Origin: Akkermansia massiliensis
Lineage (GTDB): Bacteria > Verrucomicrobiota > Verrucomicrobiia > Verrucomicrobiales > Akkermansiaceae
Direction: 5' to 3'
Length of the DNA stretch: 64,000 bases
Assembly: GCF_018847375.1 (NCBI RefSeq)
Contig: NZ_CP072036.1
Span: 310,001-374,000 of the forward strand
Positions 4,947 to 28,198 of this stretch are shown one piece after another. The translations under genes were made by a program, and so were the position numbers. How positions within the stretch are numbered: position 1 is the stretch's first letter; each line of letters begins with the position of its first letter. The notes under the pieces are model-generated. The model was not told the DNA's origin. It worked only from the letters and a program-made list of their open reading frames with translations, and did not search any database.

Positions 4947-5375
4947 TTAGAGAGTGATGGCAGTGGGCTGCTGGGCTTCATGCGGATGACCGGCGCCGGC
5001 ATAAACCTTCAGCTTGGTCATTTGCTGACGGCCCAGGCGGGTGTGGGGCACCATGCCCTTGACGGCCAGTTCCAGAAGAAGTTCGGGGCGGCGGGCGCGG
5101 ATTTTCCGCGGAGTGTCCACCTGCTTGCCGCCGACGTATCCGGAGAAACGGGTGTAAATCTTGGCGTTTTCCTTGTTGCCGGTCAGCACCACCTTGTCCG
5201 CGTTCACGATAATGACAAAGTCGCCACAATCAACGTGGGGGGTGAAAATTGTCTTGTTCTTGCCACGCAAAATGTTAGCCGCTTCAACGGCAACACGGCC
5301 GAGCACCTTGTCGGCAGCGTCTATAACATACCATTTGCGCTCTACTTCTTGCGGTTTGGCTGAGAAGGTCTTCAT
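4947..5375 (-). CDS. rplM: 50S ribosomal protein L13
   Basis: A 142-residue L13 with the family hallmarks [20 protein letters not shown] near the N-terminus, [15 protein letters not shown] in the middle and [20 protein letters not shown] towards the C-terminus. First gene of the rplM-rpsI operon. No good Shine-Dalgarno is seen in front of the ATG, which is common for genes in this window. Confidence 0.97.
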
Positions 5376-5556: not shown

Positions 5557-5584
5557 TTGCCCTCGTGGAAATATGGCCTATTAT
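5557..5584 (+). promoter_or_regulatory. Possible promoter of infA
   Basis: TTGCCC at 5557-5562 and TATTAT at 5579-5584 are separated by 16 bp, about 50 nt upstream of the Shine-Dalgarno of the extended infA frame. Weak -35, good -10. Confidence 0.4.
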
Positions 5585-5641
5585 TCGCCTGCGCGAAAAT
5601 TCGTACACGCGCGTTCATTTTAACCTTACAAGGAGAATCCT

Positions 5642-6160
5642 ATCAGCCCGAATCCAAGACCCAGCAACCGCCCCAGCGGCGGTCAGAATTCCCGCCCCGG
5701 CCCCAGGCCGGCAGGCAGCAGCACAAGACCGGCCGGCAACGCCAGCCGTCCCGGACAGCCCCGGCCTGCCGGGAGTGGCACCGGCCCGGCACGCCCGGCC
5801 GGACAGTCCGCTGGCCCGGGAGGCGCCAGAACTGGCGGAGGACCACGCCCCGGAGGCGGACCCAACCGGCCGCGCCCGCAGGGAGGCGGGGGCCGCCACA
5901 CCAAGGGCAGGAGGCATTTCAGCAAATCGGCCCCCAAGGAAGAAAACTCCGAAAGCGAAATTGAAGTGGAAGGCACCATCTGCGCCGTGCTGGCGGGCAC
6001 CATGTTCAAGGTGCGCCTGCCCAACGGGCACGAAGTGCTGGCCCACATTTCCGGCAAGATGCGCAAGCGCTTCATCAAAATCGTTGTGGGCGACAAGGTG
6101 CGCATGGAAATGTCCCCCTACGACATGACCAAGGCGCGCATCACGTTCCGCATCGGTTAA
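5642..6160 (+). CDS. infA: Translation initiation factor IF-1 with a long basic N-terminal extension; apparent ATC start
   Basis: The C-terminal 65 residues are a clear IF-1 OB fold: [39 protein letters not shown] and [17 protein letters not shown]-1 binds the ribosomal A site during initiation. The frame is open upstream for 108 more codons encoding a disordered Arg/Pro/Gly/Ser-rich tail with repeated RPAG units and a basic [16 protein letters not shown] end. No ATG, GTG, TTG or CTG occurs in that stretch until a GTG at 5966, which would cut into the first beta strand and has no good Shine-Dalgarno. Instead AAGGAG at 5630-5635 sits six bases before an in-frame ATC at 5642, so I place the start there. 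The IF-1 identity is certain; the start is inference. The minimal alternative is 5966-6160. Confidence 0.75.

Positions 6161-26682: not shown

Positions 26683-28198
<1,516 letters not shown>

Follow-up and report, generated by a model that had tools for sequence, protein, structure and literature searches.

The infA gene of Akkermansia massiliensis, encoding translation initiation factor IF-1, appears to be translated from an AUC codon, a start shared by other Akkermansia and many relatives. In the analysed window, a contiguous stretch of 64,000 nucleotides, the infA frame on the plus strand is bounded upstream by a TAA stop codon (5621-5623), as in the closest relatives, and is open to the TAA at 6158-6160. 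A Shine-Dalgarno site, AAGGAG (5630-5635), is separated by a six-base spacer (5636-5641) from the candidate start codon ATC (5642-5644). The first ATG, GTG, TTG or CTG codon in frame after TAA 5621 is the GTG at 5966. Direct reading of the sequence thus bore out the layout given in a preliminary description of this DNA. The frame from ATC 5642 comprises 172 residues, of which 108 precede GTG 5966. Akkermansia G001, the nearest genome to the window (84% of sampled 31-letter words), encodes an identical 172-residue product, and GTG is likewise its first in-frame NTG codon. The window's own 16S rRNA terminates in GGATCACCTCCTTTCT, and pairing of this end with AAGGAG is possible; the anti-Shine-Dalgarno sequence CCTCCTTTCT lies at 26684-26693 on the minus strand. 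A consensus scan identified a putative infA promoter, TTGCCC-16-TATTAT (5557-5584, plus strand), matching at 9 of 12 positions. The divergent upstream neighbour in the open reading frame list (4947-5375, minus strand) is presumably rplM-like, judging from its translation. An RNA fold of the infA leader and start region was no better than those of shuffled sequences (z 0.27), and Rfam showed no entry at infA.

Start codons were compared among relatives, with AUC, AUU and AUA summarised as AUH. Family f1 was taken as Akkermansiaceae because the named matches L087-L092, P0002, P0031 and P0102 resemble its members. Its 159 genomes comprised 58 with AUH, 99 with AUG and two uncalled: G296 (genus g24), with no recognisable AUH motif in the stretch, and the truncated G183. 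All three genomes of a second family, f6, used ATC or ATT. Genomes lacking a match over the cut-off (G264, G274, G278 and G299, four of 145) and Akkermansia genomes lacking a match (G012, G018 and G029, three of 37) were left out. AUH starts were called at an Ile followed by typed residue motifs, so the exclusive presence of ATH at the start place in all 61 AUH genomes (49 ATC, 7 ATT, 5 ATA) is partly built in. An alignment of 28 representatives and the lack of alternative start codons served as independent checks, and the comparison indicates a conserved AUU/AUC/AUA start across these 61 genomes. ATG, GTG and TTG are absent from the stretch leading from the upstream stop to the AUH codon in 45/61, from the tail after the AUH codon in 52/61, and from the whole distance between that stop and the conserved AGT-M, whose ATG lies inside the core, in 11/61. 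An exception is G262, an ATC genome with an in-frame ATG preceded by AAGGA 18-19 codons upstream.

Within Akkermansia, 40 of 54 genomes carry ATG and 14 carry ATC or ATT at infA. The latter codons were found in G001, G005, G037, G060-G063, G069, G076, G086, G108 and G195; the exact start is ambiguous in G016 and G080 due to runs of ATT after AAGGAG (G016 also has one ATC). ATC or ATT occurs as well in the named records L087-L092. The suggestion that ATC is the infA start gained support from the ATC or ATT at the same place, preceded by AAGGAG, in all 14 genomes. The sister genome G014 has its ATG in the very column of the ATC and not elsewhere (MSPQPSPSN versus ISPNPRPSN). Outside Akkermansia, ATC, ATT or ATA was called in 44/45 genomes of g20, g22, g23, g24, g25, g26, g27, g28 and g49 (G296 uncalled), and ATG in 59/60 genomes of g18, g19 and g21 (G183 truncated). 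In AUG-type Akkermansia, the ATG start frequently comes immediately after an ATA (e.g. L008, L010, L013, L016, L020). None of 100 infA loci outside f1 and f6, consisting of the best-scoring 30 of a phylum search and 70 of 80 from another search, was free of ATG, GTG and TTG over the 60 codons preceding the core. Inspection by eye of a further 30 loci from the same order revealed an ATG shortly before the core in 25; five did not reach the start. In these samples, which cover other phyla thinly, AUH at the start of infA is therefore characteristic of f1 and f6. GTG as infA start is common in more distant phylum members, with 17 cases by eye among 30 loci (L405-L434).

The 108 codons from 5642 to 5965 (plus strand) encode an Arg/Pro/Gly tail with an acidic stretch at its end. 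Purifying selection on this tail, named in the preliminary description as something to look for, is indicated by a pooled pN/pS of 0.32 versus 0.03 in the core (45 pairs from 10 Akkermansia genomes), the last 12 tail codons being counted with the core. Neither stop nor frameshift, either of which the preliminary description had named as refuting its reading, occurs in the tail of these 10 genomes. Changes fall mostly on the third codon position; G001 and G062 differ at 0, 1 and 20 sites of positions 1, 2 and 3, respectively. High conservation extends from the ATC on, and 12 of the 14 AUH Akkermansia genomes share the same 15 bases, agcccgaatccaaga, after the start codon. The kept frame, the third-position changes and the pN/pS of 0.32 argue for a translation that begins before GTG 5966. 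The coherent look and the open frame of the tail had also been put forward as an argument for its translation. This part is weak: 2000 dinucleotide shuffles of the tail yielded 72% open frames, 13% without NTG and 8% with both properties, so that openness and missing NTG codons prove little. With a G+C content of 72%, an open tail is unsurprising. Translation of infA from AUC 5642, tail included, is nevertheless strongly supported by the comparison with relatives. Tail length varies from 33 to 117 codons among AUH genomes. In both the family and the order, many IF-1 proteins of the AUG type likewise have a basic tail of Arg/Gly/Asn/Pro ahead of the core (e.g. L212-L230, L022, L028, L050), and some order members have an almost tail-less IF-1 (e.g. 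L169, L179).

The IF-1 OB-fold core with its stop codon occupies 5966-6160 (plus strand). Residues 104-170 of the window protein match TIGR00008, translation initiation factor IF-1, with 97.3 bits at a cut-off of 61.15, and the Pfam eIF-1a match reaches 81.2 bits. Matches to solved IF-1 chains span residue 99-105 to 167-171. A second, standard infA had been proposed as a matter to check; the search covered the nearest genome, G001, which holds a single infA. Because no NTG codon occurs in the window's frame ahead of GTG 5966, a 64-residue IF-1 might begin there and leave the upstream frame untranslated. This reading is scarcely credible, since the GTG encodes residue 109 and solved chains match already from residue 99-105; a start at GTG would lose part of the core. 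It is further opposed by the pN/pS of the tail, by the ATG of the sister at the place of the window's ATC, and by the 11/61 AUH genomes that have no ATG, GTG or TTG at or before the GTG place. Two products might also be formed, a long IF-1 from AUC and a short one from the internal GTG, in a ratio set by stringency. The GTG is kept at the same place in G001 and near relatives, yet the short form would miss the same core residues, and the 11 AUH genomes without such a codon include an Akkermansia, G016. A dual start is thus very improbable, and a single start at AUC 5642 remains the preferred reading.

A Shine-Dalgarno site tends to accompany the AUH codon. Of the 58 family AUH genomes, 35 have AAGGAG or AAGGA ahead of the called start, among them all 14 AUH Akkermansia (AAGGAG throughout) and all called genomes of g20, g23, g25 and g26; AAGGAG is present in 3/3 genomes of f6. 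The remaining 23 family genomes without a site before the called start belong to g22, g24, g27, g28 and g49. A T-rich stretch ending in agttATCgc often precedes infA in AUH members of g24 and g27 without Shine-Dalgarno site (L263, L265, L296-L298, L305, L307, L308). AUG starts were called as the 3'-most in-frame ATG, which is wrong in detail for some genomes (internal ATG in G003), and the Shine-Dalgarno count was therefore run over every in-frame ATG. Such a site was found before any in-frame ATG in 1/99 family AUG genomes, and a similar one before some in-frame ATH in 4/99. The base at position -1 is U in 59/61 AUH versus 73/146 AUG genomes, the latter being rule-called ATGs that include 47 from outside the family. 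AUG-type Akkermansia carry an A at this position, counted from the called ATG, in 24/40 genomes. On an IF3 protein tree, built by a quick method that left 40 of 101 inner branches open, the infA start changes four times, in a form that does not separate gain from loss of the AUH start. Independent AUG/AUH pairs amount to two on supported branches and four in all, which places the link between AUH and the Shine-Dalgarno site beyond statistical testing.

The gene infC is the textbook case of control via a start codon that is rejected by the gene's own product. A U just before the start codon may pair with the initiator tRNA. According to published work, IF3 acts jointly with IF1 on the 30S subunit to reject AUU, AUC and AUA starts. 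Autocontrol of infC was abolished by a change of AUU to AUG, as far as the title of Butler 1987, cited in PMC9845219, conveys. An AUH infA mRNA should therefore be sensitive to IF1/IF3 activity. In the mechanism proposed here, infA translation would start at AUC 5642, and the strong AAGGAG six bases upstream and the U before the codon would compensate for the weak AUC. IF3, helped by IF1, would reject this AUC on the 30S subunit. More active IF1 and IF3 per ribosome would lead to less IF-1, a negative feedback on start-codon stringency that resembles the control of infC and is placed on infA. We infer this feedback and its sign; it is the likeliest function, with a probability somewhat above even. 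Its basis, namely the start codon, its conservation, the translated tail, the association with a Shine-Dalgarno site and the AUH infC in the wider family, is supported by comparison. The earlier suggestion of infC logic on IF-1 is plausible; the likewise suggested RNA binding by the tail is hypothetical. Feedback cannot be essential, because 99 family genomes have an AUG infA.

The logic gains weight from infC itself, which seems to start at AUA, AUC or AUU in other genera. By position and following residue, such a codon was called in 66/66 family genomes read outside Akkermansia, under a rule that allowed only ATH codons there. An in-frame ATG, GTG or TTG before the core is missing in 47 of these, and one or more are present in 19. 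Many genera seem to carry AUH on both infC and infA, and g18, g19 and g21 on infC only. The infC of Akkermansia has a conserved GTG and no Shine-Dalgarno site in 41/41 cases (L057-L086, L326-L336, L341-L343), counted under a rule aimed at GTG, which was also seen by eye; an in-frame ATG before the core occurs in 1/41. In the window's clade, infA thus carries AUH whereas infC does not. A joint IF1/IF3 circuit based on AUH codons is broken in Akkermansia by this GTG and was ruled out there.

The main rival considers the AUC start a fixed brake, which keeps IF-1 low or less noisy and does not respond to IF1/IF3 levels, the Shine-Dalgarno site merely restoring sufficient translation. Low expression at a constant level would give the same picture as feedback. 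Drift and compensation would account for starts that alternate between AUG lacking a Shine-Dalgarno site and AUH preceded by one, and the GTG of Akkermansia infC beside the AUH infA of one clade fits as well. The choice of codons, however, speaks against a mere brake: GUG or UUG would likewise reduce translation, and GUG starts on infA are frequent in other parts of the phylum, but the family's non-AUG infA starts are AUC, AUU or AUA, with no GUG or UUG by eye under a rule that did not seek them. The fixed brake is a serious candidate that falls short of an even chance, and feedback on IF-1 synthesis is preferred.

The closest known system is infC of Escherichia coli and others, with an AUU start and autocontrol by IF3. 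Both cases concern an initiation factor gene with an AUU, AUC or AUA start conserved among relatives. They differ in that the gene here is infA, for which we infer the feedback, and in that infC of Akkermansia itself has GTG. A chloroplast infA shares the non-AUG start; it has a functional UUG, and its change to AUG raised translation 300-fold (Hirose 1999, as cited in PMC9845219). UUG is a canonical triplet that is not rejected by IF3, according to PMC4611024. The bacterial genes described here use AUC, AUU or AUA instead, the window's codon being ATC. Discussion of an AUH infA start was not found in the accessible portions of full-text literature on initiation factor and non-AUG starts (including PMC9845219 and PMC13345285), a scope beyond which an arXiv list of non-AUG genes (Gvozdjak and Samanta, cited in PMC9845219) may include infA.

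PMC5756025 describes a basic N-terminal tail before the OB fold in yeast eIF1A, a homologue of IF-1, and its basic residues stabilise the closed state and favour suboptimal start codons. The tail of the window protein is similar in composition. Alignments of PDB eIF1A chains begin at residue 77 with weak E values of 0.04-0.75, and the match to the eIF-1A family model is limited to residues 104-170. At such E values the likeness of the tails possibly reflects mere composition, and it is treated as a lead rather than as homology. The tail may act like that of eIF1A at the P-site codon and aid near-cognate initiation, forming with the AUH start a stringency sensor, a proposal that we regard as unlikely. 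If true, AUH on the infA mRNA and, for most genera, on infC as well would establish a homeostatic circuit of start-codon stringency parallel to the eukaryotic eIF1/eIF1A control.

An infA with the codon class of infC and AUG/AUH swaps between sister species offers ready-made experiments on the role of IF1 in start-codon discrimination, natural swaps in which a Shine-Dalgarno site tends to accompany AUH. Gene callers restricted to ATG, GTG and TTG would truncate the essential IF-1. In NCBI, the AUH codon is already taken as the start, read as M, of three proteins: P0002 from A. muciniphila (165 aa), P0031 from an Akkermansiaceae MAG, with a tail as in L305, and P0102 from Rubritalea marina, which shares its tail with L314, where the codon is ATC.
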